64,000 nucleotides of DNA, from NCBI GenBank assembly GCA_036320915.1, contig JAXBDG010000003.1:2232001-2296000 (forward strand), read 5' to 3'. The notes below the pieces were generated by a model. The model searched no databases and had not been told where the DNA came from. It worked only from the letters and a program-made list of their open reading frames with translations. Position 1 is the stretch's first letter. The number at the start of each line of letters is the position of its first letter. Both the position numbers and the translations under genes were made by a program. Positions 258-60,942 of this stretch are shown piece by piece. The DNA is from Linnemannia elongata (taxonomy: Eukaryota; Mortierellomycota; Mortierellomycetes; Mortierellales; Mortierellaceae).

Positions 258-2451
258 TTACGAGTCAAGTCTGGCTTGGAGGCGGTTCAATTCAGCCTGC
301 AAAAAATTGATCTGCTGCTGCAGCTCAAAATTTCCACCCACACCACTGCTTTTGCTTATAGGTACACCTGCCCCCTGAGGCCCTCGTGGACTCCTGAACC
401 CCTCCCCAAGAGGTATCTCGGAATTGAATGAGGGGTCGTACTGTGGGTTGGGAGATTGTGAGGCTAACTTTTCCTGACGATCGGCGATCTGGTGCTGGAG
501 TTGCTGGATATGATCCTGTGGGCTGAGAGACGACAAGAGGGGAGGTAGTGGTGGGATGAAAGGGACCAATTGTGGGTTGGCTGCTCCTGTATTTGATCTG
601 CTGTCGAATCCAAACTTGTACTCTTGCATAGCGTCGTACTGTGGGAGAGCGTAGCTGGCTGCCTTCTGTTCTTCAAGCTTAGGCTGAGAGTATATGTCGA
701 ATGGCGGTGATGGGGATGGTGGGTTATCGCGAGAGGTCTCCATAGATGGTAGAATCTGATCTTTTTGGTGGTATTCTCCAGATCCATGACCATTCTCGGG
801 GGTGTCCTTAGCTTGTCGGCGCCTACGCATGACGAAAAAGGCGACCAAGGCAATGACAGCAAGAGCACCAGCGACCCCTCCTCCGATCGCGGCGGCGTTG
901 CTCTTGATCTCACCACGTCCCACCTCTCCTTCATTCTCATCCTTGCCTGGTGGTCCTGGGTTCGGCACATTCGGGACAAAGTGAGTGCCGCGTGTGAAGG
1001 TGTCTGTCCAGGCTCCAGTGTGAATGTTGTAGATGAGCATTGTCCCTGGTGCATCCTGGGGTGTGCCTTCTGGGATGAACCTTATACCTATCACAAACAA
1101 AAACAAAAAAAGGTGAGGTTGACGTTAATGGCAAGGAAATGCGTTCAAAAAAAGGTTAGAAGTGTTTCCATGACAAAGAACAATATTCTTCAAGTCTTAC
1201 CACCCCAGACAATGAAATTATCGCCCGAGACCGCACATGCCATAGCCGATCTGCCCAGAGATGGATCGAGACCAGTAACCTTACTCCAGATCATATTTCG
1301 AACGTCGAGGATGTGGAGGCTGCCACTCGTCGGGTCGTTTGAACTATCTCCTCCAAAGAGAAGCAATTTTGTCCCGTTATACGCTACGAAAAAAAAAAAA
1401 AAAAAAAAAAAAAGGAAAAGAGCGGTGAGTGATGTGGGTGAAAAAAGTAGTTCTCCAACTTTGACTAGACCGGAAATGCTCTACAGATGAGCGCTGTTTC
1501 TCAAAAATAAACTTACCGGGAACCATGCAACTCCTGCGTCGTTAAGGGGGGATGTCGCCAGTTGCTGGCTGTTTAAGAGAGAGTTATGAGAGACGCATAA
1601 AGAAGTAGTGGTATGTTACTCTGTGTTTTGAGCGGCCTCAACTCATAGAAAGCGCCGTGACGCAGTAGAAAACGAGCAGAGATCAACACATATTGAGGTG
1701 ACACAGAGCGAAGGACATACCAATGCAGTCCACTTGTTGGAGGAAGTAGAATACTCGACAAAAGGGTTCGTCGCCCTGATAGGCGTGTTCCCATAGAAAA
1801 TAAGAGTGTTCCGCAACTCGCTCCAAACAGACGCATAGAACCGGTCGTTGACAAAGCCGTTCGGACTGGTAGCAGGTGTGAAGGACTGGGTCGCTGGGTT
1901 ATAGACTCCCATACTGACATTGTTGTACCCGCCCGGGTAGTAGACCAGTCCTGTTCGTGGATCCGTCTCGGCGTGTAGGTCACCTGAAGAGGTAAGTTGG
2001 CTTGGTTTGGGGACTTGTGTCCAGGTGTCGGTAGCAATGGTGTAATTAAGGACCATGCCTGGGTAGGCGACCCAGAAGGTGATGTTCTGCTTGTCTGGTG
2101 ATACTGAGATGGAGTGTTTATTGATCCTCGCTATCAGATTAAGGGATTCAGGGTACACTCGAGCACGCCATGGTGGGTTCATGGTGGTCCAAGTGGGTTG
2201 GGTGAGATCGAGGGTGTAGAATTGGTTGGTAGTTGGTCCTGCTGGTCCGTAGGAGACTCCTCTTGCATAAAGAACGTATCCTCGTTGACTGTCGTGTAGG
2301 CCATACTGCCAACTGTGATAGGAGGTAAGGAGGATTGTTGTGCCATTAAAGGTACCGATAGGACGAGGAGAAGAATGATAAAGGCGTGAAAGGTTCCCCA
2401 TGGCACAGCAAGGACATTCAGCTTGTGAGGCAGACGGGATGAGACAGGCAT
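258..2451 (-). pseudogene. Kelch-propeller single-pass membrane protein, disrupted copy (kelch-1)
   Basis: Exons inferred from GT-AG sites and paralogue alignment: 2451-1721, 1568-1517, 1383-1201 and 1087-258. The product would have an N-terminal hydrophobic signal segment, kelch blades (MAYTTVNED, NQFYTLDLTQ, KLLLFGG, ACAVSGDNFIVWGG), a membrane span at about 896-828 followed by RRRR, and a tail with NPQL (578-567), PQDH (521-510) and a C-terminal coiled coil ending at the stop. Two defects are visible. Exon 1 changes frame near 2262: it is 731 nt where a multiple of three is needed, and one extra base restores both the kelch reading and the phase-0 splice. Exon 2 has an in-frame TAA at 1544-1542. 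Splice sites and the 52-nt exon 2 are otherwise kept, so the damage is recent or partly sequencing error. Strongly supported as a kelch-TM homologue; moderately supported as a pseudogene. Confidence 0.75.
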
Positions 2452-3198
2452 AACCCGAACGACGAACAGGGGAGGGAGGGGAATGTGAGAGAGTAATACT
2501 GAGGATGGAAGGTGAGGATGGAAGGTGAGGACGGAGAGTATACGGGTGGGAAGAGGATATGGATGTGATATATAATTGCTGGCGAAGAGTGAAGGAAAAG
2601 GGGAGCAAAGGAAGGCACGAAGCGAGAGGGAGTGGGGAGCACCCTAGTGAGAAGGAGTGAGGAAAAGAAGAGAAAGGGAAAGTAAGGAAATGGAGAGATC
2701 CAGGAACAAAACCAAAATTATTGGGCGTGGGCTGTGTAGTCGAGCAGAATGAAGTTGAGAGCGGAGGGACAGAAGGAAAAGGGGATGAAGTGAGGAAAGG
2801 AAGGAAGGATGGGGGAGGGGAAACAGAAAGGCAAGTTAGTGTCGGTATGCACCAATGACCACAACAAAGGCAAACCTTAAAAAGAAGAGAGACAGGAAAA
2901 TGCACGCCAACACCCCCCCAACCGAATCAACAACAAAGCGGACATCTCAGTCGTTAATCATTCCTATGCAAGACCGAATTCCCCTTTTATGCCATATGAG
3001 AGGATATCCCATCGTTTATTAGTAAACCTTGGGCTATGCAATTTCTTGTGCGTCTTGAGGTGACCCACTACATGACCACTTGAGTGAAAATCTACGTACC
3101 ATCATTGAGAGGCAGGCAACAGGGCCCAATTGTTGGTTATAATGTACTAGGCACTATTGCTGTTTATTGCTGTTTTGGTGAAGGAGCTACAGTTCTTA
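2452..3198 (-). other. Intergenic: pyrimidine-rich leader of kelch-1 and 3' flank of kelch-2
   Basis: From 2452 to about 2905 the minus strand is dominated by C and T runs (TCTCC/CTTTCC type). Long open frames here are compositional and show no kelch or other domain similarity. I read it as the promoter/5' UTR of kelch-1. The remainder has no recognisable gene. Confidence 0.5.
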
Positions 3199-5106
3199 TT
3201 AGCGTGACAGCTGACGAACAAGTTCTCGAGGATCACCTGGGATCCCCGTCACTTCATAGTAAGAAGGGATGGCGGGTCGAGAACGAGAGGATGCGGAATA
3301 TGAAGGAGGTGAGCCTGACACGCTTGGTGGTTCGTTGTTGGGCATGTACTGCTCGTTATTATAGGACATTTCCGGCGGCTCCTCCTGCTGCTGTTGCCGA
3401 TTGTCGAACTTGCTCTGGTAGTACTCGTTGGATGCTGGTCCGAGTCGGTCTGCTCTATTCTCCGCAGGAGATGGTATCATCGACATACTGGGCGAAACCA
3501 TCTCAAAGTCCTTTGTACTGCGCTGCCGACGTCTCTGAACGAAAAGGAAGATGATTACAGCAAGGACCCCGACACCAACTGCAACTCCACCACCGATTGC
3601 TGCGCCGCTGGTGGTGGTGATGCCTCCACCTCCAACAACTTCACCACTGCCTATGCTTGAACCACCACCAACGATAGGGCCTACACCTCCACCTGTCGAT
3701 CCACCTCCTGAACCACTTCCAGATCCTCCTCCTGAGCCAGTTCCTGGCAGTCCTCCTGGTGCTCCATCCGTCTTGTTGCCATTGGTGCTACGGACAAACT
3801 TTTCCGTCCACTTCCCTGTTTTGATGTTGTAGATAAGTGGGGTTGTTGGAACCGCGACACTATCAGCCGACAGCATCTCTTTGTACCCTAATGGATAACG
3901 ATATGGATGACAGCTGCGGTTAGTATATTCTTAGTTGAAAAACAAGTGGGCCACGACCAAGAATGTTTACTTGGCGGAAAGGAAGGTTCTTACCTCCCCA
4001 GACGACAAAGTTATCTCCAGCCACCGCACACGCCATCTCCGATCTCGCGTCCGGTGCATCTTTGCCGGTGATCCATGTCATAGTCGAGATGTCGAGGATC
4101 GAGAGGGATGCGACAGAGGGTCCTGATCCGTCACCGCCAAAAAGGATCATCTTGGTGCCGTTATATGCTATGAGGTGGGGAAGTGAAGAATAATGACAAG
4201 TCAATTAAAATGAGTTGAGTTATAGACAGGTATCCAAATGCCACGTTGCTCTTACCAGGCACCATGCAGCTCCTGCGCCTGAAGGAAGGGGCTGCACCTA
4301 TTGTTATCTAATGATTAAGGTGGCATATTAAACGTTAGAGCAAAATGGCTATGGGAAGACATGATACATCAATGTCGTAATTTAATTGTGTAGCATACCA
4401 GTTGGGTCCACTGGCCAGTGGAAGGTGAGTACTCAGAAAAGGCGTTCACATTGCTGACATTACCAGCAAACAAGAGAAAACTCTTGCGAGCCTGGCACCA
4501 GACGAACGAATAAGAATCCAGGACAGGCACAAGAGCCATGGGTATGTTGATCAAGGTAGTCAATCCAGTCAAGTAGTTGTATCGGACCAAGTAATTGGTA
4601 CTGAGGGACCCTGCTCCTGGGATGTAGACCATTCCGGTTGATGGGTCCGTTGCCGCATGAAGGCCACTACCAGAGATGACCTGACCTGCTGTGAGTGGCA
4701 CTCTCGTCCATGAGGCATCGGCGATACTGTAATTGAGGGTAACAGTCGGGTAAACGCTCCAAAGCGTGAGAGTCTGACGGTCGGGCGAGATCGTCATGGA
4801 TTGACTGGAGATTGTGGTAGCAACATTTGTGGGAGGAGTTAAAGCCTTCCAGGGAGGACTAGTTGCGTTCCAGTCCTGAGTGAGGTCGAGCGTGTAAAAT
4901 TGAGAGGCGATTTTGGCGGTGCCTCCGGGTGGTGGGAGGATTATTCCGCCCTGAATATACAATGTACTCTCGTCGATGGTTGTGTACGCCATTCCATATG
5001 TCGAAGCAGGGGCTTGAGCTGATGCCATGGCTGCTAGGAGAGAGAGCGTTCCCAAGAGCCAAGAAAGGGGGCTCAATCGATGACTACGATGGAGTGTGGG
5101 TATCAT
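3199..5106 (-). CDS. Kelch-propeller single-pass membrane protein (kelch-2), about 540 aa
   Basis: Four exons: 5106-4399, 4307-4256 (52 nt), 4167-3994 and 3887-3199, with intron phases 0, 1, 1 and all GT-AG. Residues 1-30 form a signal peptide (hydrophobic core LLGTLSLLAAMASA). The ectodomain has kelch signatures MAYTTIDESTLYIQGG, SQFYTLDLTQ, GMVYIPGAG, FVWCQARKSFLLFAG, KMILFGG and FVVWGG, with conserved cysteines in SCMVP and MACAV. A Gly/Ser-rich stalk leads to a membrane span at about residues 407-428, followed by QRRRQR. The tail of about 110 residues is Gln/Pro/Ser-rich and ends in a DPRELVRQL segment resembling the tail end of kelch-4 (SPQELARQI). The frame is open throughout. The ligand is unknown; a surface sensor or adhesin role is inference from topology. 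Confidence 0.85.
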
Positions 5107-6280: not shown

Positions 6281-8369
6281 CTATCTATTATTCATCATTG
6301 CCTGGCGTCTATTCCATTCCGCCTGTAGTAAATTAATCTGTTCAAGCAATTCTTCATTGTTTACTGCTGTAATCGGATCCGCTACACCATGAGGAGCTCG
6401 TGCAGTAGGTGAAGGCAGGGTCTGAACCTCGGTTGGTTTGAACTGTGGATGGTTGCTATGGCGTCGGGGGGTGTATACTCCATGGCTTTGTTGATGTTGT
6501 AACTGTTGAATGTGATCTTGAGGATCTCCTTGCCCGGATGATTTTGAGCGTGATGGGATACCACTTGGGGAACGGGTGGAAATTGCATACGGAGGAAGTG
6601 AGCTGAAGGAGCCTTGTAGTTGGATCCTGGATGAGTACTGCGGGTTGGTGCTATGCATTTTCCGATCCTGCTCCTGTTTTGGCTTGCCTTTGGTGCAGTC
6701 GCCGGGCCTGGTACTTGGGTTGTCCATGGACGAAATTACTGGCTTTTTTAACGCCACCCCAAACTTCCTCATTTCCTTGTGTTGCCGACGCCTCCGGATA
6801 ACTAAAATCGCAACGGCGACTATGACCACCATACCTCCAGATGCTCCTCCTCCAATTGCGGCGACATTGTTTGAAAAGCCTCCATCTCCTACAACTCCAC
6901 CGCCTCCTGCGCCTTTATCTCCACCTCCATTTTCCGCTCCACTTCCTGCCCCTCCATCTGTCATATTGCCATTTGGAATGCGTACAAACTTGTCCGTCCA
7001 TTGTTTGGTTTTGAGGTTGTAAACCAGAGGCACAGTAGACACCGAAACAATAGGGATCGCGTTCTGAACTTTGTAACCTAACGTACAACAAAAATGAAAA
7101 TACTAATTCCGTTCAATACTATTGTCGAAGAAAAAAAAAGAGGTGACAAAGACTATCATTGTTTCAAAATGTGAGAGAATATTCGTACCACCCCATGCGA
7201 CGAAATTGTCTCCTGCCGCGGAGCACGCCATTTCTGATCTCGCTTCTGGTGCTGGTGCATCGTTTCCGCTGGTCCATTTCATCGATGCGACATCCAGGAT
7301 AGAGATGCTCCCGACAGACGGTCCTATTCCGTCGTCGCCGCCGAATAGGATCATCTTGGTGCCGTTGTATGCTAAGTGTAAAGGCAACAACCACAAAAAA
7401 GCACATGTCAGCGCGCACAGTTAACAAGAGAGAGAGTAAGCACAGTAAGAGACAATAATCAAGATTTGGATTTGTGGTGGTCTCAATTTTTTGGCACTCT
7501 TATGCACCTGGGATCATGCAGCTTCTGTGTCTGAAGGAAGGGGTCGCTCCCGATGAAGGCTATAAACATGACAGCAAAACACGAACAAAATTAGAAGCGA
7601 CGCTCGAGAAGAGGTGGCGTTTATTCGCAGTACATCTAACCTTCCGAGCACGTACCATGGCCATCCATTTATTTGAGGCAGGATTGTACTCAAAAAAAGG
7701 AACAGCGGTGGTTGCGTTGCCCGAGAACAAAATAAAAGTCTTGCGGGGCTGGCACCAGGCAAAGGAATAGGAATCTTGGGCTGTGACAAGAGTTGGCGGT
7801 ACATCCATCAACGAACTCGTTTCTGACAGGAAACTAAACCTGACCATCTTATTAATGGAGGCACTTAAGATAGGAATGAAAACCGACCCAGTTGTCGGAT
7901 CTGTCGCCGCATGAAGACCACTACCACGAGCTTGTGGGCCTGTGGGGAACGGTACCTCTGTCCAGGCGTTATCGACGATACTGTAGTTGGCGATCGTACT
8001 CGTAAGATAAAGATTCCAGGTCGTGAGTGTTTGGCGATTTGGAGAGACTGTCATCGAATGCCGAGAGAGATTTCCTACATTGGTAGGATTTATGGGCGGT
8101 GTCAATGCCTTCCAGAGTGGATTGGATGTATCCCAGTTTTGTGTGAGGTCGAGGGAGTAGAATTGATTCGTCAGTTCGAATGGACCATTGGCTGGAAGGT
8201 TGATTCCGCCTTGGATATATAACGTTTTCTCATCGATAGTTGCGTAGGCCATTCCATATACTGAAGTAGGAACTTGTGCTGAGATCGTCTTTGTCAAGAG
8301 ACCGAGCGTTGCCAAGGCCCAAGTGAAAAGCCCAAACCGACGGGCTGGGCATAGAGGAGTGAGCATCAA
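6281..8369 (-). CDS. Kelch-propeller single-pass membrane protein (kelch-3), about 581 aa
   Basis: Exons 8369-7656, 7559-7508 (52 nt), 7371-7189 and 7077-6281; the second intron has a weaker GTGCAT donor. The protein starts with a signal peptide (LFTWALATLGLL). Kelch signatures include MAYATIDEKTLYIQGG, NQFYSLDLTQ, GSVFIP, FAWCQPRKTFILFSG, KMILFGG, SISILDVASMKWT and FVAWGG. Conserved cysteines occur in SCMIP and MACSA. A Gly-rich stalk precedes a membrane span at about residues 388-410, followed by RRRRQ. The tail has NPQY (about 461-464), PQDHIQQLQHQQ (about 502-513) and a C-terminal heptad-like segment (LLEQINLLQAEWNRR). The PQDHIQQLQHQ string is identical in kelch-1, so the two tails are closely related. 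Probably a plasma-membrane protein; function unknown. Confidence 0.85.
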
Positions 8370-10122: not shown

Positions 10123-11176
10123 CTATCGATCTAGCTTGGCTTGGAGTCGCTGCAGTTCTGTTTGCATAACACGAATCTGTCGTGCAAGTTCTTGTGGACT
10201 CTCTCCTATAGGTGCAGGCTCACTACGATCCTGTGGGCTCCTTACAATCTTAGGCGACGAAGAAGTAGATGAAGAGGAAGGTGCATCGACTACGTGCGTG
10301 TGAGGGTGTTGTTGTCGTGCCGGCAGAATAATACTTTGTTGAGATAAGGCTGGATGTTTAGTATTCTCCGAGCTGCCAGAATAAACGTCTATTGGCGGGG
10401 GACAGGGTGTCACAGAAGGTGACGTGGCATTCGAACTCTGAGCGGGCCAGGTTGCCTGCTGAGGAAAGGAGAAGGGGAGTGCGACTGCGGGGAAGACGAG
10501 GGCCCAAGCATTAGGACAGTAGTAGGTGCAGTGTAGGCCGTCTGGCCATATGCCACGCCTGTTGAGGCACCCTGAATATCCATCTTGTCGGCTGACCAGG
10601 GTATAAGATCAACTGGCTCGTTGTTGTGGGTGTTGCATTGAGGAACCTTTTGTTGAAGGCCCTCCATTGCCTTTAGCCTCCTCTCACTTTGCTCTTTCAT
10701 GCGCCATCTGAGGGCAGTCAGAAAGCAATAAAGAATGATAAGAGCAACGATTCTTTCTATGACACCCAAGATGACTCCGATATCATCCGAGGGCGAGCGT
10801 TTTGATAAAGCGGACGTGGCCACTTTTCTGTCCCGCACGAATTGGGTAGCTCACCGTTTCGACCGCAGATTAAAGATGAGCGGCGTTCCAGAAGTCTCTT
10901 CAGCAAAGTGTGCTGTCTTTGGTAACATTCCTGTAGATTGAAGATAATAAAAGAAAAAGAGAAACGCGAACATTGGAGGGGTGATCGAAACAAGCTTATG
11001 TGAACAGGTAATGATTTCATGTCCATCATGATTTTACCTCCCCAGACGACAAAGTGGTCTCCTGCAACAGAACAGGTCATATCTGCGCGGTTATCATTAG
11101 GACCAACTCCGCGCTCTTGTGTCCAGATTCGTGTTCGAATCCAATATGTGCAAGTCTTCAAGGGGATAAGAGTCAA
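10123..11176 (-). pseudogene. 5'-truncated kelch-TM relic (kelch-4)
   Basis: Only the 3' half of a kelch-TM gene remains. About 11176-11034 matches the end of the third exon (IWTQ, then ADMTCSVAGDHFVVWGG), with a frame change inside the preceding LHILD segment. After an intron, the last exon begins near 10927 (MLPKTAHF, then TPLIFNLRSKR) and hits TGA at 10853-10851 exactly where paralogues have the Trp of the GKWT motif. The same frame then gives a membrane span (ILGVIERIVALIILYCFLTAL) and part of a tail. A second frame change between about 10600 and 10410 is needed to reach the C-terminal end, which has SPQD, SPQEL and a coiled coil (MQTELQRLQAKLDR). Exons 1 and 2 are absent upstream. Confidence 0.8.
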
Positions 11177-11736: not shown

Positions 11737-13596
11737 TTACTTCCCGCGTTTACACGTTCGAAATGGGGGAAGGGATATAACAACAGTTGAGTTGGTCTTG
11801 AGTGCCTCAGACAGCGCCTGAGCTCCATTGGATCCGATCGAATTGCGTTCCAAATGCAAAGTGGTCAGGGTCGAGTTGGTCTTGAGTACCTCAGACAGCG
11901 CAACAGCTCCATTGGATCCGATCCAGTTGTGTTCCAGGTGCAAGGAGTTCAGAGTCAAGTTGGTCTTGAGTGCCTCAGACAGAGCCTCAGCTCCATTGTC
12001 TCCGATCGAGTTGTAGCCCAAGTCCAAAGTGATCAGGGTCAAGTTGGTCTGGAGTGCCTCAGACAGAGCCTCAGCTCCATTGGATCCGATCGAGTTGTAG
12101 CTCAAGTTCAAAGTGATCAGAGTTGAATTGATCTTGAGTGCCTCAAACAGAGCCTCGGCTCCATTGTCTCCAATCGAGTTGCTTTTCAGGTGCAAAGCGG
12201 TCAGAGTTGAGTTAGTCTTGAGTGCCTCAAACAGCGCCTCAGCTCCATTGTCTCCGATCGAGTTGTAGCCCAAGTTCAAAGTGGTCAGCGTCGAGTTGGT
12301 CTTGAGTGCCTCAGACAGCGCAACAGCTCCATTATCTCCGACCGAGTTGTAGCTCAAGTTCAAAGTGATCAAAGTTGAGTTGATCTTGAGTGCCTCAGAC
12401 AGAGCATCAGCTCCATTGGATTCGATCGAGTTGCGTTGCAGGTGCAAAGCGGTCAGAGTTGAGTTGGTCTTGAGTGCCTCAGACAGCGCAACAGCTCCAT
12501 TGTCTCCGATCGAGTTGTAGCCCAAGTCCAAAGTGATCAGGGTCAAGTTGGTCTGGAGTGCCTCAGACATAGCCTCAGCTCCATTGGATCCGATTGAGTT
12601 GCTTTCCAGGTGCAAAGCGGTCAGAATTGAGTTGGTCTTGAGTGCCTCAGACAGCGCCTCAGCTCCATTGTCTCCGATCGAGTTGTAGCCCAAGTTCAAA
12701 GTGGTCAGGGTCGAGTTGATCTTGATTGCCTCGGCCAGTACCTGACGTTCAACGGATCCGATCCAGGTACCCTGCAAGTTCAAAGTAGTCAGGGTCGAGT
12801 TGGCCTTGAGTACCTTTAACAGCGCCTGAGCTCTGTAGGGTCCGATAAAGTTGTCTTCCAGGTGCAAAGTGGTCAGAGTCGAGTTTGTCTTGAGTGCCTC
12901 AGACAGCGCCTGAATTCCGTTGTCTCCGATCGGGTTGCGTCCCAAGTACAGAGTGGTCAGAGTCGAGTTCGTCTTGAGTGCCTCAGACAGCGCTTGAGTT
13001 CCGTTGTTTCCGATCGAAGTGTTGCTCAAGCTCAAAGTAGTAAGAGTCGAGTTGGTCTTGAGTGCCTCAGACAGCGCAACAGATCCACTAACTCCGATCG
13101 AGTTGGTGTCCAAGCGCAAAGTGGTCAGAGTTGAGTTGGTCTTGAGTGCCTCAGACAGCGCCTCAGTTGCGTTGGATCCGATGAAGTTGTTGCTCAAGTC
13201 CAAAGTGGTCAGAGTCAAGTTGATCTTGAGTGCTTCAGACAAGGCCTCAGTTGCGTTGGATCCGATGAAGTTGTTACTCAAGTCCAAAGTGGTCAGAGCC
13301 GAGTTGGCCATAATGCCAGAAATTATTTTGTCTCGTTCAGATTTCGATGATAGTTTTTCATAGGCAGAGCTGTGAATCTTTAGGCGTTTTATAAGGCGCT
13401 TGTTTCTCTCGATAGATTCCATGCTGGGGCCATGTTTCGAAAACACAACAGAGTTGTAGAGCGGCGGAATAAATGAGTCGTTCCAATCCTGACTCACACG
13501 CACACAGGACGCAAGATCCTTGGGGCTAAGGCTGTTGGCAATTACCGAGCGAATTTCTGGTAAATCAAGGACATGTATCCGGAGCATCTTAGTCAT
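11737..13596 (-). CDS. F-box-like protein with 18 ribonuclease-inhibitor-type LRRs
   Basis: An ATG at 13596 gives 619 aa and a start close to the F-box-like segment (VLDLPEIRSVIANSLSPKDLASCVRVSQDWN). An in-frame ATG at 13791 would add 65 residues, but they are encoded by pyrimidine-rich leader-like DNA. A GT-AG pair at 13826/13675 could be a 5' UTR intron that removes that ATG. Eighteen consecutive 28-residue repeats follow (LTTLxLxxNxIGxNGAxALSEALKTNST), filling 13296-11785, then a 15-residue basic tail. The repeat type matches the RI/NLRC3 LRR class, which forms a horseshoe. There is no NACHT or NB-ARC domain. By family logic it could be an SCF-ubiquitin-ligase substrate adaptor, but the F-box is short and divergent and the target is unknown. 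Confidence 0.82.
   Translation of the reverse strand: MTKMLRIHVLDLPEIRSVIANSLSPKDLASCVRVSQDWNDSFIPPLYNSVVFSKHGPSMESIERNKRLIKRLKIHSSAYEKLSSKSERDKIISGIMANSALTTLDLSNNFIGSNATEALSEALKINLTLTTLDLSNNFIGSNATEALSEALKTNSTLTTLRLDTNSIGVSGSVALSEALKTNSTLTTLSLSNTSIGNNGTQALSEALKTNSTLTTLYLGRNPIGDNGIQALSEALKTNSTLTTLHLEDNFIGPYRAQALLKVLKANSTLTTLNLQGTWIGSVERQVLAEAIKINSTLTTLNLGYNSIGDNGAEALSEALKTNSILTALHLESNSIGSNGAEAMSEALQTNLTLITLDLGYNSIGDNGAVALSEALKTNSTLTALHLQRNSIESNGADALSEALKINSTLITLNLSYNSVGDNGAVALSEALKTNSTLTTLNLGYNSIGDNGAEALFEALKTNSTLTALHLKSNSIGDNGAEALFEALKINSTLITLNLSYNSIGSNGAEALSEALQTNLTLITLDLGYNSIGDNGAEALSEALKTNLTLNSLHLEHNWIGSNGAVALSEVLKTNSTLTTLHLERNSIGSNGAQALSEALKTNSTVVISLPPFRTCKRGK
11785..13296 (-). repeat. 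Coding 84-bp tandem repeats, 18 units
   Basis: Each 84-bp unit encodes one 28-residue LRR. Units are very similar at the DNA level (recurring cores such as agtgcctcagacagcgcctc and ttgtctccgatcgagttg), indicating recent unequal crossing-over or gene conversion. The central units mix two flavours (GYNSIGDNGA and HLxxNSIGSNGA), suggesting multi-repeat blocks were copied. Confidence 0.9.
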
Positions 13597-41644: not shown

Positions 41645-41778
41645 TATCTTGGGTGGAGAAAGCAAGGTTGGGGGGATGAATGCAGAGGAATGAGAATTAG
41701 GAAATCAGGGATGAGGATGTGAGAGTGAAATGAGCAGAATGTGGGTGAATAAGATGGGAAATAATAAGAGTCTTCGCG

Positions 41779-48520: not shown

Positions 48521-50558
48521 ATGACTCTTCTACACGCGATCTCTCGCCTCGCAGCAGCAGGAATATCTGTCCTCTGGCTCACATGGACTTCATCTGCCCA
48601 GTCCAGCCCGATGATGGTATACAACATGGCCTACGCAACCATTGACGAATCCACCCTCTATATCCACGGCGGCTTTAACGGGACCAACTCCAACTACACT
48701 ACTCGATTCAACCAATTCTTTTCGCTCGACTTGACACAGGACTGGAGCACGTCAGACCCTCCCTGGACACAGATCCTTGCTGTCGGCAGCACTCCAGATC
48801 GACTCACAACCGCCGGACACACGATGTCGATCTCTCAGAGCCAGGACAGTCAAGGCTTCCTACGCGACACTGTGACTGTCTGGGACATGGTCAACCCTCT
48901 CACTTTCGCGGCCTGCTATTACTTTGAGACAAAGTCGTGGCAGGAGCTGCCGGCCTTTCCACCACCGGAACCGGGTCCACTACGATTCTACCAAGCAGCA
49001 ACCCACCCAGAGACTGGTCGTGTGTACATCCCTGGATGTGCCGGGACTAGCATGTTGGGCTATGACAGGTCAACATCTACGACTTCTGTGCTCCCTATGC
49101 CATACCTTGGGAATATAACCAGCTGGAACGGGTACGGCTTTGTGTGGAATGCAGTGCGGGGGTCGTTCTTTTTGTTTGGTGGGGTGGGTGCTCCGTCTGA
49201 GATGTCCTATTTGTACGAGTACAAGATGTCCACCACCCCTCCAACGTGGGAATTCTTGGTATGTTATGATTTCTTTCCCGCCCCTCTTTCTTTTTTTTTT
49301 TTTTTTTTTTTTTTCGCTTGGTTGGCTTTACTTTGGAGGAGTGCTTCTTGAACGATTGCTAACCAAGTTGACCTTTTTACGCTCCATTTGCTTTGCGAGA
49401 ATAGCAATCATATGGATCTATACCACCTCATCTGTCAGAGATGTGCATGGTTTCGGGTAAGGAGAACAATAAAGATACGCCATTGTTTTGAGGTTTTTTG
49501 TTGACTCACGAAATTGCATGGACTAAATTTCCTCGTCCTCTATTGCCTTTCTCCTTTCTTGTTACCTCTTTAGCATACAGCGGAAATAAGATGTTGGTGT
49601 TTGGTGGAGGGGTCAATGGATCAGAAGTAGGAACCCTCTACATCCTCGATGTACCGACCATGACCTGGACTCGCGGACCCAGCTCGCAGCCGCGGAAGGG
49701 CATGGCATGTGCGGTAGCCGGCAACAACTTTGTTGTCTGGGGTGGTACGTGCACAAAACAAAAAATCTCCCCAGGAATTTCTTGATTCTTTCATGAGCCA
49801 TCAAATGCTCACACGTTTTGTGCTTCATATTTTTTCTTCTCTCTCATGGCTTGTTCATAACCTTAGGAATATCGTGGAACAACTCGGGTGAATTCGTATC
49901 CCTACCATCAACACCGACCGTATACAACATTAACACTGGACAATGGACACCACAGTTTGTAGCCACCCGTCGTCCGCCCCCTCCAGGATACGAACCAGTA
50001 TCACAAGACGGGAATGACAGGAAAGTCGGAGAGACTGGGAAGATCATTGCTACTGTGGCAGGAGTTTCTTTAGCTGTTACGATCTTGATCGCTGTTACAC
50101 GAAGAGTCTGGAAGCATGCTTTTCGTCGAGGTTTGCAGGACCAGCAGGGGCAAGGGAAAGGTCAGAGTCATGAGCAAGGGCAAGGGCACGGGAAAGAAAA
50201 TGACTTGGAGGATAATATTGTTCCTTTAGCACCCTCGGAGCAGAAGCTAGAGGAGGTCACAGAGGTTAGATATTTCGGGAACGTGGCTCCTCAACAACAC
50301 GCGTCGGGCTCTCTTCGCTTGTCCGCCACTCTTTCTCCTCCTCCTCCTCATATCTCTCCCGCCTATCCATCGCCTTCACTGCCATCACATCTACCACCTC
50401 ACGCAATAGTAGCGCCTCATATTTCAGACATTCTTGGAGATCTGGTCGCTGCTCACCAGAAGGAGCCCCAACCTCGACATAATCCGCAGCTGTTCACCAC
50501 CAATACTGACAGTAGTTATAATACACCAGAGCAGGCACCCCTCGATCCACAGGGATAG
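48521..50558 (+). CDS. Kelch-propeller single-pass membrane protein (kelch-7), about 550 aa
   Basis: Exons 48521-49258, 49405-49456 (52 nt), 49574-49744 (171 nt) and 49867-50558. The in-frame ATG at 48323 was not used because it adds leader-like sequence ahead of a good signal peptide (LAAAGISVLWLTWTSSA). Kelch signatures include MAYATIDESTLYIHGG, NQFFSLDLTQDW, GRVYIPG, GFVWNAVRGSFFLFGG, KMLVFGG, LYILDVPTMTWTRG and FVVWGG. Conserved Cys occur in MCMVS and MACAV. The membrane span is at about residues 378-398. The tail has a Gln/Gly/His-rich stretch, Pro-rich region and RHNPQLF (NPQL 526-529). Intact. Intron 1 contains a 24-nt pure T tract. The next locus downstream is a decayed copy of this gene. 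Confidence 0.87.
49291..49314 (+). repeat. Poly(T) tract in intron 1 of kelch-7
   Basis: A pure run of about 24 T on the coding strand. Similar tracts occur in introns of kelch-1 (1389-1413 as A on the plus strand), kelch-8 (52425-52445) and kelch-9 (55245-55275). Confidence 0.9.
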
Positions 50559-52905: not shown

Positions 52906-54313
52906 CCTCTCCTTCTCCCTCTCCCTCCTACATTAGAACAGAAAATCGGAGGGAACCACTTCAGGGCAGACTACAGATGTGTAAGCAACCCGACTCAGAC
53001 GCGACTGGAAACGTGGCTTCTTTATTTTTTCTCAGTGTAATATTTTCCTACCATCTACTTCCCAATTTGCAAATAACAACTAATTTGACTAATGCCTAAA
53101 ACGTTTTACCTTACCCTTTTTAGCTTTATGCCTGATTAGAGCGCACTTAGAGCAAAAAGGAACAGTACTTGTGCTTTAGTGATGCTGCGCGCTAACTGTC
53201 TACCAGTACCATGGAGCAAAAAAAGGGCTTATGTCTATTGTCGCGTCTTTCTAACCATTCCCCTTCATTTTGCTTTCGCGAACAAAACAATCGCTAAAAG
53301 CGAAACGCGTGAGATACCTGTCATTTAGGAACAGGGGTCAAATGAGCTTAAGAGAATGATGAGGCGACTGCAATTACTCTTTCCCTGGAGTGATGAGGAT
53401 TAAGGATGAGGTTCGTCGCTTTACCTTATTAGTAGATTACTAATTTTTGTGTCACGCACACACCACACACCACACACCAAATGCCATAACTATCCCCACC
53501 TGCCCACGCGCGTTTGTGGGTGTGGTCCTTGTTTTGTTTACATGCCTTGGTTGATTGCAATTGACAGCCAGTAATAGATTTCTTACAGGGGCTGAAATTT
53601 TTTTAACCCCATCACGGTATCACGGTATCACGGTGCCACCAATATTGCTTCTTCAATCGGCGACGCGTCAAGGGTGAGTGAGAATATGTTTGTAGTAAAC
53701 AATGAAGCGGCATATCATCATGGTTGATGCTTGGACAGTCTTGACCGTCAAGAGGGAGAAACCTTGTGAGGCCCTCCCCCCCCTTCGAGTCCCACTTCTG
53801 TAACACCTCTTTCCAAACGTCCTCTTTTCCCCCTCTCCTCTCACTTTCAATCTCTCATTTTTCCCATGGTGACACAAGCAAAATTTTCCTGCTTTCATGC
53901 TTGCTTTCGACAATGGAGGGCAATTGCTTTGCTCCTACCTTTGACCTGGCAGTAATTGCGAAGAAAAGGGTCCGCAGAGGGATCTCAGGCCAATTGACTT
54001 TGATATTTCTCTATGTCTGTTCCATGTTGAGCTCATCCTTTCACCTTCTATTGCTGTTCGGCTATGAGAGGAATGATGGGTCTATGGCGATATGAAAAAA
54101 AGTTTGCGTGATCCTCTCCATGATAAGGTTTGAAACGGAAAATTTATTTTTTTGCCGTTGCAGCCCCTGTAATAAATCAGGGATCGCTGCTGGACTTGCA
54201 TTGTGTTTGTTTGCATGCCTTGTTTATGTAATTGACAGACGTGCATGGTATTCTTATTTCTTTGCTTTTCCCATCCCTAACCGTTTCATCGGGATCACAG
54301 CAAAAATGAAATT
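52906..54313. other. Intergenic with repeats upstream of kelch-9
   Basis: Includes a CACACAC microsatellite (about 53457-53478), three ATCACGGT-like units (53614-53633), and a 12-bp inverted repeat TTACAGGGGCTG at 53584-53595 matched by CAGCCCCTGTAA at 54162-54173. A direct near-repeat (GCATGCCTTG ... AATTGACAG) occurs at about 53535-53570 and 54200-54237. No gene recognised. Confidence 0.45.
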
Positions 54314-54320
54314 TATAAAA
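54314..54320 (+). promoter_or_regulatory. TATA box of kelch-9
   Basis: TATAAAA about 200 nt upstream of the ATG at 54522, with a C/T-rich leader between. Confidence 0.55.
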
Positions 54321-54521
54321 GGATCATATCCAGCCATGACGAGGACATCAATTCTTTGTTTTTGCTACTCGTCCTTCCTTGCATCGCGTTTCTTGCTCAT
54401 CATATTCTCTCCGATCAGTTATCCGGCCAAAAACTTCCTAGGCAAATCATTCTTCACTGCCCGCACCTCCATTCCTCACACTACACTGGCATATACCCAC
54501 CTTAATACGCATATAAATTCA

Positions 54522-55242
54522 ATGAAGCTCAGCACCCAACTCTGTACAATTGTGTGCTGTTGTCTGCTCTGGAGCGTGGCGTCAGCCGCAGCACCAAACA
54601 TGGCTTCCTTCGCCGCCTACATCACAGTCGACGAGAAAACCTTATACATCCAAGGCGGATCAAATGTCTCAACCAAGGCCATCGTATACAACCAGTTCTA
54701 CTCCCTGGATCTCACACAGAGCTGGAACACCTCCAATCCTCCTTGGTCCGAGGTCCTTACCGACTCCGGTTCTCCCATCCCACCGCGACTGACGACTGTC
54801 TTTCATTCCATCTCGCTTTCGCGAAACCACAGGACGCTGACATTCTGGGACGTCTACTATTCACCTCCATACTCTGTCAACTATCATCTGGACACCAACA
54901 AGTGGGAGGAACTACCCGCCCTACCACTTCAACGACCCCTCGTCAGCAAAGCCTCTAAAGCAGTGACGGACCCCACCTCAGATCAGGTTTACATCCCTGG
55001 TGGGGCGGGTGGCAGTATGCTTACCTTCGATCCATCTTCGGACACCTCGAATGAGCTTGCGATGCCTCCTGGTGGAAGAGCCACAAGCTGGAACGCTGCG
55101 TCGTTTGCTTGGAATAATGTCCGCCAGACGTTTTTTCTGTTTGGGGGATTTGATACTCCTGAATCGTACTTTTACGAGTACAAACCCTCAAGCGCGACTC
55201 CTTGGATGGCTGTGGTAAGTGCAAATAAAAGGGGTCACGTTT

Positions 55243-55276
<34 letters not shown>

Positions 55277-57323
55277 TTGTACCATGCAAAACGCCTTAAC
55301 GATTTCATCTCCCTCTCGTTTTCTTGTTTCTCAGAGCTCTTTTGGTTCCACGCCACCTGCTCTCGCTGGCGGATGCATGGTGTCTGGTAAGGAAAAAAAA
55401 GAGTACACAAACATTCACGATTGTATTTGTCCTCTAGCGTCCAAAATTTCATATTGGCTAACTTTTTTTTCCATCTCATGCTGACAACTTGCTTTATTTA
55501 GCCTACGGCGGAGCCAAGATGGTCGCCTTTGGTGGCAGGTCTGGAGGCTCCATCTATGGCAGCATCTATATCCTGGATGTTGAATCCATGACATGGAGTG
55601 AAGGTCAAAGTACTCAGCCTCGAACCGGAATGGTCTGCTCAGTCTCGGGCGACTACTTCATCGCCTGGGGAGGTAAGGCATTTCACTTTTTACTACTCGA
55701 TCGACATCTCTGTTCGAAAAACAGTACCCGCTTAGTTTTTTTTATTTTTTTTTTTTATTTTCGTTCGCTCGTTGCTAACATTTTTTCGTTTGATAAATTT
55801 TTTGCATAGGAGTATCGACCGACAAGTCTGACATATCTGTGTTGTTGCCTGAGGTCCCTATCGTTTACAACCTCAAACTGGGAGAATGGACCACAATGTT
55901 TGTCGCGAAGACCCGCACGCCAGTACCAACGCCATTGACACCAACATCAACATCAACAACAACAACTACAATAACACCAACACCAACAGCAACAGAGACG
56001 CTGGTTACAGGAGAACCTGGAACTACGCCCACGGACACACCCATTATTACTCCAACAGATGCGCCTACAGATGCACCTATCACGACGCCTACGGATGCGC
56101 CTAGTCCTACTCCCACCGATGCGCCTAGTCCTACTCTCACCGATGCGCCTAGTCCTACTCCCACCGATGCGCCTAGTCCTACTCTCACCGATGCGCCTAG
56201 TCCTACTCCCACCGATGCTCCTAAGCCTACTCCCACGGATGTGCCTAACCATACTCCAACCGACAATCCAAACCCTACTCCCACGGAGACTCCAAACCCT
56301 ACTCCCACGGAGACTCCAAACCCTACTCCCACGGAGACTCCAAACCCTACTCCCACGGAGACTCCAAACCCAACTCCCACTGATACGCCTAACCCTACTC
56401 CCACGGATGCGCCTAACCCTACTCCCACGGATGCGCCTAACCCTACTCCGACAGATGCACCTAGTCCTACTCCCACAGACGCGCCTAGTCCTACTCCCAC
56501 GGATGTGCGTAATCCTACTCCCACGGACACACCCAATCCTACTCCTACGGATGTGCCTAAACCTACTCCCACAGACACTCCAAACCCTACTCCCACGGAT
56601 GTGCCTAACCCTACTCCCACAGAAACTCCAAATCCTACTTCCACGGACGGTCCAAACCCCACTCCCACGGATACGCCTAACCCTACTTCCACGGATGCGC
56701 CTAATCCTACACGCACAGATGTGCCTAACCCTACTCCAACAGACGCACCCGTTCCTACCGTGACAAGTACTTCTGGAGATGGCAGTACAGCGACTGGTGC
56801 ACCTAGCGGTACGGCAACAGAATCATTCGGCTCCACGATGACAAGTGCACCTGGAGTTAGCAGTACAGCAACTGAAACACCTGGCACTACGACTACTGGT
56901 ACACCTGGGAATGGTGAAACGACAACAGGAAGACCTGGAGGTGGCAGTTCAGAGACAAGAACATCCGGGGGTGGTGCGCATCCAACAGGAGGCGACAATT
57001 CCGAGACAGGAGGCCACAATAAGCCAACAGGCAGCTCGAGTTCAGGGGTTCACGGTACACCCACAGGAGGTGGAGCTCGAGGAACAGGAGTTGCCGATTC
57101 GGTGACAGGAGCAGAACCTACTCTCAAAGACAACTCTGCTACGCTTGGAGGCGCTATCGGTGCTGCAGTCCTCGTCTTCTTGACCCTCATCATCGCGGCG
57201 GTCGTCTGGAGCCGCAGCCGTCGTGATAAGAAGAAGAAGGAAGAGACGCAAGAGATTCCTGTTCAGTTACCGCGACCCTTGCAGAAGATCAAACACAAGC
57301 TTTTGGAGAGGATTCCCTTTTGA
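54522..57323 (+). CDS. Kelch-propeller membrane protein with long mucin-like stalk (kelch-9), about 809 aa
   Basis: Exons 54522-55214, 55335-55386 (52 nt), 55502-55672 (171 nt) and 55810-57323. Signal peptide TIVCCCLLWSVASAA. Kelch signatures include YITVDEKTLYIQGG, NQFYSLDLTQSWN, DQVYIPGG, FAWNNVRQTFFLFGG, KMVAFGG, IYILDVESMTWSEG and FIAWGG, with Cys in GCMVS and MVCSV. The propeller is followed by a Thr/Pro stalk built from 28 eight-residue units (TPTDAPNP type), then a Ser/Thr/Gly region, a membrane span at about residues 752-772 (AIGAAVLVFLTLIIAAVVW) and a short basic tail of about 37 residues without PQDH or NPQL. Intact. The extended, probably O-glycosylated stalk would lift the propeller away from the membrane. 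Introns 1 and 3 have T-rich tracts. Confidence 0.87.
55245..55275 (+). repeat. Poly(T) tract in intron 1 of kelch-9
   Basis: About 31 consecutive T on the coding strand within the intron; length is likely variable. Confidence 0.9.
56085..56756 (+). repeat. 24-bp coding minisatellite, 28 units
   Basis: Units of ACTCCCACGGATGCGCCTAA-type sequence encode TPTDAPNP with variants (TPTETPNP four times in a row, TLTDAPSP, TSTDAPNP). The repeat opens a long antisense frame, which is a by-product. Confidence 0.93.
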
Positions 57324-59249
57324 AGGAGCCAGTCATCCACCGCTGCAAGAACTCAACGGCCAATAATTACCCGACCTAACTCCCTCAGCATATACACTAA
57401 ACACCATAATTTCAAAATACCAATTAGCATGTATACAATCAAAGGCAGATAGCTTCCATTCATTTCTAGACTCATAGTTGCTTTTATCCTCATAAACTTT
57501 TCTTCACTGTAATGATGTAGTAAAAGTCCCACTCATAATGCCTACGCTTGTAGATTCTTTCTCTGCAAACTTCACGGGACTAGGCCATGGCTTTTACCCA
57601 ACTGCGAACGCATTCACTTATTTTACTTTTTTACTTCACAAGTATGTCAGCTCGTCATCTATACAATTTGTTCAAAGAAATCAAACGTGACCGCAAGTGC
57701 AAGGCAACAAAACGCGGAAAGTTGACGCGAAAAAAGAATCGCCAAAAGTCACGTGAATCCTTGCCGGCTGGAGAGAAGACTCTTTTGTTACCCCTGGGTG
57801 AAGGGAGGAGAGCTTGTTGATAAGAGTAAATAGACACCATACCTTCCCTAACATCTTCTTTCGAACAGCAATACCTAACTCATTTTATCTTCAGGCTCAC
57901 GTAAACACAAGAATGATTCACGGGTGATGAGGATTCATGTTGATGGAAGTTGGAGAATCAACCGTGAAAAGAAGTCACATGCGACACGTTTTAATCTGCA
58001 CCCATGTTCGAGATTGAAAGTACCACCACCTTCTCTACCCTATTCACGAATGCACTGAGAGAAAAGTAAGAATGCATCAATTGCTCGGGTGTTGGAACAA
58101 GGAGTGAGTGCATTTTCTATCCGTCATCCTCGCTCGCCTTTGCGCTTGTTTGCATTCCTAGTATGGTTCTACCAACCTGCCGATACAATTTCAGGGGCAA
58201 AGCAATCTGAGACCATAATTTGAGCCCGGCTGTTTTTTCCCTCAAGGTAGCCTACTAAATTACCGACACCATTCTTGATTGCGAATTGTTGGCGTAGCTA
58301 TGTACAAATGGAGCGTGGATCCTTAAGCATCATGGATCATCAAGACTGATCATGACCCTCACTAATTGTTTTTTCCGGCACCTTTCTTCTCCAGCACCTT
58401 TCTTCCTCCTGCCACATCATCCACACTTCTTGCCTTGCATTCTTCTGCTTATCTCATGGTGACACAAGGAAATTGTTGATTGTTTGTTTATCTAGTTGTA
58501 CTTTAAAATGGATGCCAATTACCATCGACCACTCTTCACTTGGAATCGGAGACTAGGAAAGGATTCTACAAGGCATAAAAAGGCCTACTACTGATGTCTA
58601 CTTTTTTTCCTGTGTTAAACCTACCCTCTCGCTCTTCACCGTTGTCAACGCAAAGGAGGGCGACACTGGGTCTGCGGAGAAACTGAAAATATTTGTGGAA
58701 GAGCGGGCTTTTTTTCTCTCCTTCCCAGAGAAGGTTCGAGACACAATCCACAGCATGTAGCGTTTGGTTGATTGTTGGATGATGAGGGTCTACAAGAAAA
58801 GTCAATGCGCCTTTTTTTTGTTTAGGTGCCTTATCTCCTTGCATGTAGTGCATTGTTTTTTCGCTTTTCGATTCCTGATCTTTACCATGGATATCGATAT
58901 CATGCGACAAACAAAACAGAAAATAAAGGGTTTCAGCAATACAAGGCGAGGGTGAAATTCCTTTTCGATGCTATCGTTTTTCCTCTTTTTCTTTCTTTCT
59001 TTCTTTTCGATTCGTTCTTCTAATCCTACCTCCCTCCAACCCATCTGGCGCCATCTCTCCTCCCACCCCCTTATTCCCTCCCTTTATTCTTCCGCTCTCT
59101 TTCTCTCTCCCCCTATTCTTCCCTCTCTAACCCTTTCTCTCGCCTTCTAGTCAAAGCCAACTTCGATTCACCGCCCTCACTACCTGCACCACCCACTCGC
59201 CCTTTTCTAACTCAGGAATATACCCCATTTCAACACACATCTACATCCA
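57324..59249. other. Intergenic and C/T-rich leader of kelch-10
   Basis: About 58975-59240 is strongly C/T-rich and precedes the kelch-10 ATG. A short segment near 58455 (ATGGTGACACAAG) also occurs near 53866, upstream of kelch-9, suggesting duplicated flanks. No gene recognised. Confidence 0.45.
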
Positions 59250-60942
59250 ATGAGCTTTGGTGCTTGGCTTGATTTACTTCTATATTACTGCCTCCTCTGG
59301 AGCGTGGCTTCAGCCAGAGCGCCAACTATGGTTTACTTCAACGCCTACGCAACAGTCAACGAGAACACATTCTATATCCAGGGCGGAACCGATGTCACCA
59401 ACTCCTCCATCACATACAACCAATTCTTTTCTCTGGATCTGACGCGGAGTTGGAATACCTCGAACCCTCCTTGGTCCGAAGTCATCACCGCTGCTGGTGG
59501 TCGAATGCCAGCTCGACTTAAGGCCTCCTTTCATTCAATGTCACTCTCGAAAGACAAGAAAACTTTAACTTTTTGGGATCTGTACAATACTCCTCCCTAT
59601 GGCTCAAATTTTCACCTCGACACCAACAAATGGGAGGATCTCTCCGCTCTACCCGCCCAAATACCTGACAGACTCAAAGTGCTAAGAGCAGCGACGGATG
59701 CCACGACAGATCGTGTGTATATCCCTGGAGGTGCCCCTGGTAACGAAATGCTCGCCTATGAACCTTTTTCGAAAGCCTTCTCTGTGATTGCAGTGCCGCC
59801 TGGTGGAACTCCTCTGAGCTGGAGTACGTATACTTTTGCTTGGAATGAAGTACGGCGGTCGTTCTTGTATTTTGGAGGGTATGAAATGCCTGGTCCTTCA
59901 TACTTTTACGAGTATGCACCTGCTGCCGCAATTCCATGGACAGCATTGGTATGAAAAATAATAAAGGGTTGCTTCCTCCTTATTCACGCGGTTGTGAGCT
60001 TTCAGAACATTTTTTACTCCCTCGATCACTCACTCTCCTTATTGTTTTCCCCCCAGACGTCATCCGGATCCGTGCCACCTCAACTATCCAACAGCTGCAT
60101 GGTCTCTGGTAAGAAAAAATACATTCACGCCCCACACTCCTGCAGTTGCTTTTTGTACCTGGCATACTAAATCAGTGGTGAAAATAGCGATTAACTAGTT
60201 CGCCTTCTTGCTTATTAATACGTCCGTGGTAGCCTACGACGGAGCGAAGATGATTGTCTTCGGTGGCACAGTTATAGGCAAAATATACGGCTCTCTGTAT
60301 ATCCTCGATGTCCCAACAATGACTTGGAGTCTTGGACCAAGTTCCCAACCTCGAATGGCGATGTCCTGTTCGGTCTCCGGAGACAATTTTATTGTCTGGG
60401 GTGGTACGACTACGACAGCACATATTTTTTTGTCCAAGTCTCCCCCAAAAATATTCACTACACTCGTTTATTTTTAAACGTTTCTAACGTTTCTAACGTT
60501 TTTGTGTGTGTGCTCGCATTTTCCGTTGTTTACCTTCGTAGGAGTATCATGGAATGAGTCCGCGAAAACGGTTCTGTTGCCAGCGACTCCTGTCGTTTAT
60601 AATATGTATTCGGCGCAATGGACGACAAATTTCATCTCGAAACAAGACACAGCACCAAGACTAGTACCAACAACACCGCCATCAAGTACAGGATCAGGAG
60701 AATCAGGAGGTGGTGGAACGGAGACGGGAGTGGTCATTGGTGGTACAGTGACAGGACCTTCAGGAGTTGAAAATCCTGTGACAGCAGCGCCCAAGAGCAA
60801 CAATGCCGCGATCATTGGAGGCTCTGCTAGTGCTGGGATTGTCATTGTTTCGATTGCCGTTATGGTGGGGGTGGTGGTCATCAGGAGGCGGCGTAATTCT
60901 CGTCGGAGGGTGTCTTTACCGATGGAGTTTTGGAATATCTAA
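59250..60942 (+). CDS. Kelch-propeller membrane protein with minimal tail (kelch-10), about 440 aa
   Basis: Exons 59250-59948, 60057-60108 (52 nt), 60233-60403 (171 nt) and 60542-60942. Signal peptide LDLLLYYCLLWSVASA, close to that of kelch-9 (shared LLWSVASA). Kelch signatures include YATVNENTFYIQGG, NQFFSLDLTRSWN, DRVYIPGG, FAWNEVRRSFLYFGG, KMIVFGG, LYILDVPTMTWSLG and FIVWGG. Conserved Cys occur in SCMVS and MSCSV. A short Gly/Ser stalk precedes a membrane span at about residues 397-421, and only about 19 residues follow (RRRRNSRRR...). Intact. Sister copy of kelch-9, without its repeat stalk. With almost no tail it cannot carry the motifs seen in other members, so it could act as a co-receptor or decoy (inference). 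Confidence 0.87.

Follow-up and report, generated by a model that had tools for sequence, protein, structure and literature searches.

A PQ motif and, in one case, a C-terminal helix common to the tails of kelch-type and mucin-like proteins of Linnemannia elongata: candidate docking sites for a shared partner

A stretch of 64,000 nucleotides from contig JAXBDG010000003.1 of Linnemannia elongata (the window; C23:2232001-2296000, C23 being the contig) forms part of a kelch-receptor gene cluster of about 0.3 Mb. Ten kelch genes, some of them apparently broken, were counted in the window by eye, and three genes for mucin-like proteins lie among them. The preferred explanation, with a probability of about 0.55, is that the products are single-pass receptors with unlike heads, whose tails share an R-x-P-Q motif and a terminal helix and are read by a common adaptor or adaptors. 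The evidence consists of the enrichment of NPQ in kelch tails, its confinement to the tails, the same context around PQ in the mucin-like proteins, an 11-residue stretch diverged by silent changes only, and one C-terminal segment shared by both kinds of protein. The occurrence of one motif and, in one case, one helix under different outer parts points to a common partner for these unlike sensors.

The frequency of NPQ was determined in 32 kelch tails of the same genome, reduced to 30 (6151 residues) by dropping two near-duplicates; kelch-4 and kelch-8 were excluded as degenerate. These 30 tails contain 25 NPQ, whereas 1000 shuffles give 3.3 on average and never more than 12, and each of the five remaining letter orders is found 1-4 times. 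In the parts of the tail exons that precede the membrane helix NPQ is not found at all. A second set was composed of 45 out of 56 public relatives (three mucin-like proteins and eight broken ones or ones with no usable membrane helix were left out), 31 after removal of near-duplicates. In this set, which shares some genes with the first, NPQ occurs 37 times against 3.3 expected (maximum 9, 500 shuffles) and is present in 19 of the 31 tails; permutations occur 0-4 times, and NPQ is again absent before the membrane helix. PQDH is found four times in the 30 own-genome tails (shuffle mean 0.12, maximum 2), and PQD alone ten times, which is not above the shuffle maximum of 11.

Background was represented by 520 open frames from 20 stretches of 10 kb of contig 1 (5,000 of the 200,000 bases are N). 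They show no enrichment of NPQ (12, permutations 5-15), and R.PQ occurs there 20 times compared with 16-17 for the controls. Since nine codon spellings are used for the 25 NPQ of the kelch tails, the motif is not a copied DNA repeat. NPQ is thus a real motif, and in so far as one contig can tell, the genome at large does not favour it. An artefact of composition would be one alternative, the tails being rich in S, P and Q, and simple Pro/Gln-rich proteins such as L019 can carry NPQ through repeats; yet same-letter permutations are 6-25 times rarer in the very same tails, none of the 1000 shuffles reaches the NPQ count, and the sampled genome frames lack the enrichment. This explanation is highly improbable overall and is contradicted for NPQ, while single sites may still owe their origin to composition.

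In the window, NPQ stands in four kelch tails (kelch-1, -3, -6 and -7) and in that of mucin-like 1. The preliminary description of the window, made from the letters alone, had reported NPQL, NPQY and NPQF in these genes; NPQL or NPQY is present in each of them, but NPQF is found in no frame, and kelch-3 has HPQF. The neighbours of PQ are not random: among the 97 PQ sites of kelch tails, R stands two places before PQ in 27 (4.0 times its tail frequency), N just before it in 25 (4.9 times), D just before it in 14 (2.9 times) and Y just after it in 17 (5.1 times). The reading that fits these neighbours best is that NPQL, NPQY, SPQDH and RGPQG are all forms of R-[N/S/D/G/A]-P-Q-[Y/D/G/L]. The treatment of PQDH and NPQL as two separate modules was dropped in favor of a single class of motif, given that PQ has matching surroundings in both. 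The same context is found in the mucin-like proteins, where R[NSDGA] precedes PQ in 6 of 10 sites, compared with 23 of 97 in kelch tails and 6 of 222 in the background. A position table built from the kelch sites ranks the mucin-like sites above background and scores them like kelch sites (p 2e-7, a value that is too good, since the ten sites come from three related genes, and to that extent counts against the case).

At the DNA level, in agreement with the composition view, the five-letter form RNPQY is not enriched genome-wide: it was found at 13 places, compared with 16 for the reversed pattern and 33 for a control order, many of the latter being copies of one repeat. Twelve of the 13 loci read RNPQY, and L018 reads SNPQY, serine being admitted by the pattern. 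The twelve include two Sel1-repeat proteins and one EH-domain protein, most others being short frames. The NPQ of the EH-domain protein was not taken as support, as it lies partly within simple repeats. The Sel1-repeat proteins L011 (589-1716, minus strand) and L012 (577-2160, minus strand) both contain RNPQYGLVE.AL.NYNH, followed by RGPQE and RAPQD or by RNPQC and RAPQE; these four further sites of the class stand among eight other PQ. Both proteins may belong to the same pathway, which should be regarded as a lead only. PQDH as DNA was found at 414 places, compared with 120 for the reversed pattern; seven of the eight loci read have frames of at most 103 residues, so this count says little.

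PQDH is present in the tails of kelch-1, kelch-3 and all three mucin-like proteins, as had been described, and six-frame translation places it at 521-510, 6523-6512, 16818-16829, 27489-27500 and 30528-30539. In kelch-1 it opens the helix-1 segment PQDHIQQLQHQIADRQEKLA (462-521, minus strand), and in kelch-3 it opens PQDHIQQLQHQQ (6488-6523, minus strand). The mucin-like helix-1 segments, on the plus strand, begin with RSPQDH in mucin-like 1 (16812-16913) and 2 (27483-27584) and with RNPQDH in mucin-like 3 (30522-30623). The degenerate form noted earlier in kelch-4 is RSPQDR. Of eight other kelch tail ends aligned with that of kelch-1, those of kelch-3 and two relatives have PQDH, three have AQDH, NQDH or ALNH instead, and two have none of these. 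In the mucin-like proteins PQDH is invariant in all eight aligned rows, which represent about five distinct proteins. Between mucin-like 1 and 2 the PQDH segment (19/36 identical) is the best conserved of ten; the other nine give 14/71, 5/24, 9/34, 5/35, 2/16, 10/28, 6/24, 7/41 and 9/27.

The identity of the 11 residues PQDHIQQLQHQ in kelch-1 and kelch-3, pointed out in the preliminary description, is real. Of the 33 bases that encode these residues, 11 differ between the two genes; 10 of the 11 codons are affected, and all of these changes are silent. The adjoining 30-base flanks agree, ungapped, at only 6 of 30 positions on either side, and around NPQY/HPQF downstream at 16 of 30. Silent-only changes between dissimilar flanks indicate that the 11-mer is an old copy kept by selection. 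This bears on the most serious alternative, which is possible, though rather unlikely: shared descent with no shared function, whereby kelch genes that lost the propeller gave rise to the mucin-like ones, and the tails retain old sequence by chance and youth. Such an origin would fit the genomic distribution of the mucin-like PQDH segment, which among the listed matches is found only within the kelch cluster (at least three places, all in this window among kelch genes; genome searches score the best candidates, so counts of places are lower bounds). It would also fit kelch-4, which looks transitional, as only a piece of propeller is readable upstream of its tail and no propeller match lies nearby in the search with the kelch-3 ectodomain. 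The P0003/P0023 pair of Mortierella sp. NVP41, composed of a mucin-like 1 relative (BGX33_001793) and a kelch receptor (BGX33_001802), is nine gene numbers apart, on contigs that are both 154557 long; hence the gene neighbourhood may be old. Chance retention is, however, at odds with the codon pattern of the 11-mer and with the preservation of PQDH in P0003 (53% identical over 58% of the query) and in P0059 (60% in the PQDH segment). The word "converging", applied earlier to this receptor set, goes beyond the data, since shared tail descent inside one gene cluster explains them equally well; the common elements may be a convergent code or an inherited tail whose function was kept.

Judged from sequence, the best bridge between the two kinds of protein is a predicted C-terminal helix common to mucin-like 3 (30984-31118, plus strand) and the kelch receptors, which the preliminary description missed. 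A profile of 12 kelch tail ends, none of them from the window, gives mucin-like 3 35.8 bits and its two public counterparts 34, and no other match exceeds 3.9 bits, whether among the 520 sampled frames, in mucin-like 1 and 2 or in the reversed sequences of the whole set. The mucin-like 3 segment by itself scores 44.8, which none of 1000 shuffles reaches (best 11.4). Omission of single rows leaves mucin-like 3 at 34.5-38.6 bits, and omission of the three closest rows at 32.2. The reverse search is in agreement: among the genome matches listed (E up to 10), the mucin-like 3 helix finds itself and one kelch gene only, C23:2165433 (48% over 42 residues, E 3e-4), and the kelch helix of Entomortierella chlamydospora (P0039) finds, among the listed matches, mucin-like 3 and C23:2165433 only. 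The C-terminal segments of mucin-like 1 (DLMRLFAEINARYDLQIQRIHKELK, 17202-17276, plus strand) and mucin-like 2 (28032-28118, plus strand) score 8.2 bits, equalled by 3 and 2 of 1000 shuffles, respectively. Kelch tail ends were found at no fewer than ten places in the genome. Seven of these belong to the C23 cluster, and the lowest-ranking two have E 0.04 and 0.4.

The helical character of the tails was evaluated by a simple hydropathy test of heptads against shuffles, which is crude and would miss other helix registers. In the C-terminal helix the test supports such a periodicity for kelch-1 (FELQQQINFLQAELNRLQARLDS, 261-329, minus strand; 0 of 2000 shuffles), kelch-4 (p 0.0015) and P0008 (p 0.0065), and weak for kelch-6 (p 0.026). 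The heptad-like segment claimed to follow PQDH was recovered only in the relative P0014 (p 0.0125), the sole stretch passing; P0008 gives p 0.10.

A third explanation concerns endocytic sorting, in which NPQY would act as an NPxY signal and the role of the tails would be in uptake, not in signalling. It is improbable, more so than bare descent. The tyrosine preference after PQ described above and the EH-domain exons in or adjoining the same cluster (C23:2427313-2428940 and 2460354-2461267) would agree with it, EH being a domain family of endocytosis proteins. However, most PQ sites have no tyrosine, and NPF, the usual EH ligand, is not the motif here. The usual readers of NPxY, the PID and IRS domains (PF00640, PF02174), gave no match anywhere in the genome in the same kind of search that found the EH domains, although this search had no eukaryotic positive control and does not establish absence. 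Two further observations concern EH domains near kelch genes. L019 (C23, about 2157780), in or adjoining the cluster, has a weak EH-domain match outside the list of genome EH matches, and in L. zychae the annotation of the public protein P0041 includes both kelch and EH domains, perhaps because two genes were run together.

Several points weigh against a common adaptor reading both kinds of tail, among them the failure of PID and IRS just mentioned. Topology was taken from hydropathy and disorder from composition. The 24 own-genome loci outside the window were hand-chosen from PF24681 matches and are not random. NPQ is present in only 16 of the 30 own-genome tails, and in the window in 4 of 10 kelch genes, PQDH being present in 2 of 10. 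The rows of the helix profile were picked by eye, because a text pattern for the C-terminal helix matched two identical tails only. A profile of the five most distant kelch rows, with seven left out, missed mucin-like 3, and full-length mucin-like 1 and 2 were not found by the 12-row profile. The heptad test gave p 0.18, 0.46 and 0.33 after PQDH in the mucin-like proteins, 0.06 in kelch-1 and 0.15 in kelch-3; at the C-terminus it gave 0.24 for kelch-3, the range for kelch-3 and the three mucin-like proteins being 0.18-0.41. Relative to P0002 and P0003, the SAPHT segment of mucin-like 1 is better conserved (27/29 and 22/28) than the neighbouring PQDH segment (31/36 and 26/36). Finally, a comparison of the mucin-like segment profile with that of the kelch tail ends gives a score of 22.5, above the 18.8 of the highest among 200 column shuffles; with PQDH masked it falls to the background value of 14.2, so that the PQDH bridge consists of four letters alone. 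Homology of the kelch and mucin-like PQDH stretches was considered and is unsupported, as there is no alignment beyond these letters.

The observation made in the preliminary description was mostly right, and its inference partly so. The shared cytoplasmic module stands as a common PQ context and, in mucin-like 3, a C-terminal helix, and is unsupported for the PQDH stretches beyond their four letters. For the common cytoplasmic partner it could be said that the tail elements are not a genome-wide habit and at least one has been kept by selection; no partner was found. Shared elements of this kind, one of them under selection, are what one would look for if a common partner docked on them, and this much the sequences support.

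Under the preferred explanation, the cluster would encode single-pass surface receptors, most with an outer kelch propeller and three with a Ser/Thr-rich stalk alone. The tails, rich in Ser, Pro and Gln, are probably disordered, and many of them have a helix-like segment at the end. Each PQ site would most likely bind a cytoplasmic protein weakly, this being a single adaptor or one of a few. With several such sites a tail could gain avidity once the receptors are clustered by a ligand or by the wall, and the terminal helix could draw the tails together. Unlike ectodomains would in this way feed one pathway. The motif-free tails of kelch-9 and kelch-10 would belong to non-signalling partners, decoys or anchors.

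In the kelch receptors hydropathy places a membrane helix ahead of basic residues and the cytoplasmic tail, and a 21-residue segment averaging at least 1.98 was found in all 32 own-genome tail exons examined. The ectodomain matches PF24681 and PF24981, the cut-off of PF24681 being passed only for spliced protein (75.2 bits against a cut-off of 50 in P0004). PF24681 has at least 153 matched places in the genome, counted exon by exon and not as genes. The kelch-3 ectodomain has at least 129 genome matches; by hand count of the list, 55 are on C23, all within 2.15-2.45 Mb. All organism-named proteins among the 53 relatives are from Linnemannia, Mortierella, Entomortierella, Podila or Gryganskiella.

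The kelch-1-type tail consists of an NPQ site, a (P)QDH helix, NNPQYNP, R[G/S]PQGAG and the C-terminal helix. In kelch-1 itself the last exon region (261-1124, minus strand) comprises the membrane helix (890-828) and the tail, with NPQL at 567-578, SPNPQYDP, the counterpart of NNPQYNP, at 432-455 (NPQY 449-438) and RGPQGAG at 366-386, preceding the C-terminal helix, the like of which is seen at the tail ends of relatives. In alignments of 13 kelch proteins or tails and of nine tail ends, the R and P of RGPQGAG never vary. The reading frame of kelch-1 shifts in the first propeller exon (2260-2286, minus strand, near 2261-2263), owing either to a broken gene or to an assembly error. Kelch-2 has a membrane and tail exon (3202-3930, minus strand) with NNEQYMP and DPRELVRQLSR in place of a PQ motif. 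Kelch-3 (6281-8366, minus strand; 580 aa) was spliced manually from exons 8366-7656, 7559-7508, 7371-7189 and 7077-6281. It contains TNPQY (6635-6649; NPQY 6646-6635) and a C-terminal helix (ELLEQINLLQAEWNRRQAMMNNR, 6284-6352) like that of relatives P0011 and P0015. The public L. elongata protein P0004 is 99% identical to it over 96% of kelch-3, but this model stops in ASTNKVP and lacks the helix that is present in the open frame (6281-6400, minus strand) and in relatives.

In kelch-4, RSPQDR and the C-terminal helix occupy 10126-10242 (minus strand). The membrane and tail exon of kelch-5 (36152-36787, minus strand) has SPQ and HPQ and no NPQ. The corresponding exons of kelch-6 (45531-46850) and kelch-7 (49797-50555), both on the plus strand, carry NPQLF at 46140, NPQLV at 46251 and a C-terminal helix at 46701-46835 in the former and NPQLF at 50481 in the latter. 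Kelch-8 is readable as fragments. Kelch-9 (54096-57320, plus strand) combines a propeller, a Pro/Thr-rich stalk and a 38-residue tail with no NPQ; this almost tailless protein has many PTPTD/E-type repeats in its stalk (55797-57320, plus strand). Kelch-10 (59211-60942, plus strand) has a 19-residue tail, likewise with no NPQ.

The three mucin-like proteins have a Ser/Thr-rich ectodomain, one membrane helix and a tail, as judged by reading and hydropathy, and no WSC domain was matched in them at E up to 1. Mucin-like 1 (16047-17276, plus strand; 410 aa; membrane helix at about 16488-16565) is 97% identical to public L. elongata BGZ90_011927. Its KNPQLVPIG (16692-16718; NPQL at 16695) corresponds to RSPQSIVIG of mucin-like 2 (27360-27386), and its NPQL is replaced by SSQM, SPQV and SPQM in P0002, P0003 and P0059. 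Mucin-like 2 extends from the first ATG of its open frame, a provisional start, over 26592-28205 (plus strand), and mucin-like 3 from the ATG shared with public models P0057/P0058 over 29490-31118 (plus strand). No hydrophobic signal peptide is seen at the start of mucin-like 1 (16047-16180, plus strand), although the membrane helix and its basic flank point to an N-terminus on the outside. Within its first 165 residues hydrophobicity is highest in the membrane helix, and upstream of the first ATG of mucin-like 2 and 3 there are weak hydrophobic stretches only. The order of tail elements is [N/S]PQxVxIG (in 1 and 2), the R[N/S]PQDH segment, S(A)PH, PQG in some and the C-terminal segment. Kelch and mucin-like tails thus appear alike in order, a correspondence of pieces being shown only for the PQ context, the letters PQDH and the C-terminal helix.

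Other frames deserve mention. At G000:C16:350140-350376 (minus strand) a 446-aa open frame has a tail end matching kelch tails (E 1e-10), and no kelch ectodomain match lies near it in the genome search with the kelch-3 ectodomain; the gene could encode a third type of ectodomain, have no head at all or be a kelch gene that has diverged. Between kelch genes of the window, a 706-aa open frame (11740-13857, minus strand) has leucine-rich repeats and an F-box match below the cut-off. Kelch-5 is flanked by facing genes (33500-35575, plus strand; 39309-41704, minus strand), which by eye resemble FAD-dependent monooxygenases (VLIVGAGLGGL...LGALLEK).

Partial parallels to known systems could be drawn. 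Immunoreceptors carry ITAM/ITIM motifs common to different ectodomains; the receptors described here likewise have unlike heads and a short repeated tail code, but no tyrosine is required, and the likeness is an analogy only. Integrin-type NPxY tails are read by PTB/FERM domains. A minority of the receptor-tail sites here have the N-P-x-Y spelling; the tyrosine is nevertheless optional, and Q is the fixed residue. The related form FXNPXY is named as an endocytic motif in PMC2882754. The ectodomains resemble kelch/attractin-like proteins (PF24681, PF24981), and among solved chains BSU1, KLHDC3 and plant specifier proteins come nearest to them (E 2e-5 to 5e-4); the present proteins differ in being membrane-anchored, fungal and equipped with a PQ-motif tail. 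The tail of mucin-like 1 matches no solved chain at E up to 1. In yeast, sensors of WSC type (Wsc1-3) and MID type (Mid2, Mtl1) have unlike heads, and their C-terminal tails are proposed to act on the exchange factor Rom2 (PMC6685044, in part). There too two single-pass kinds differ in their heads, and the mucin-like proteins share the Ser/Thr-rich sensor layout; here, however, a kelch propeller takes the place of the WSC head, and the portion of PMC6685044 considered mentions neither the R-x-P-Q motif nor a C-terminal helix of this kind. No report of a receptor cluster with a shared tail code was found in open-licence PubMed Central papers, and the considered portion of PMC8778642 does not mention kelch.

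It could be speculated, with considerable doubt, that the cluster is a receptor system specific to the Mortierella group, used to discriminate partners, rivals and self. Variable propellers and headless stalks would share a tail code of R-x-P-Q repeats and a pairing helix, read by an undescribed adaptor domain, and L011 and L012 would be components of the pathway or competitors for the reader. The sensing of neighbours, bacteria and their own wall by early-diverging fungi seems little studied beyond the yeast sensors. A short, testable peptide code common to a large receptor cluster could be used as bait for the missing pathway.

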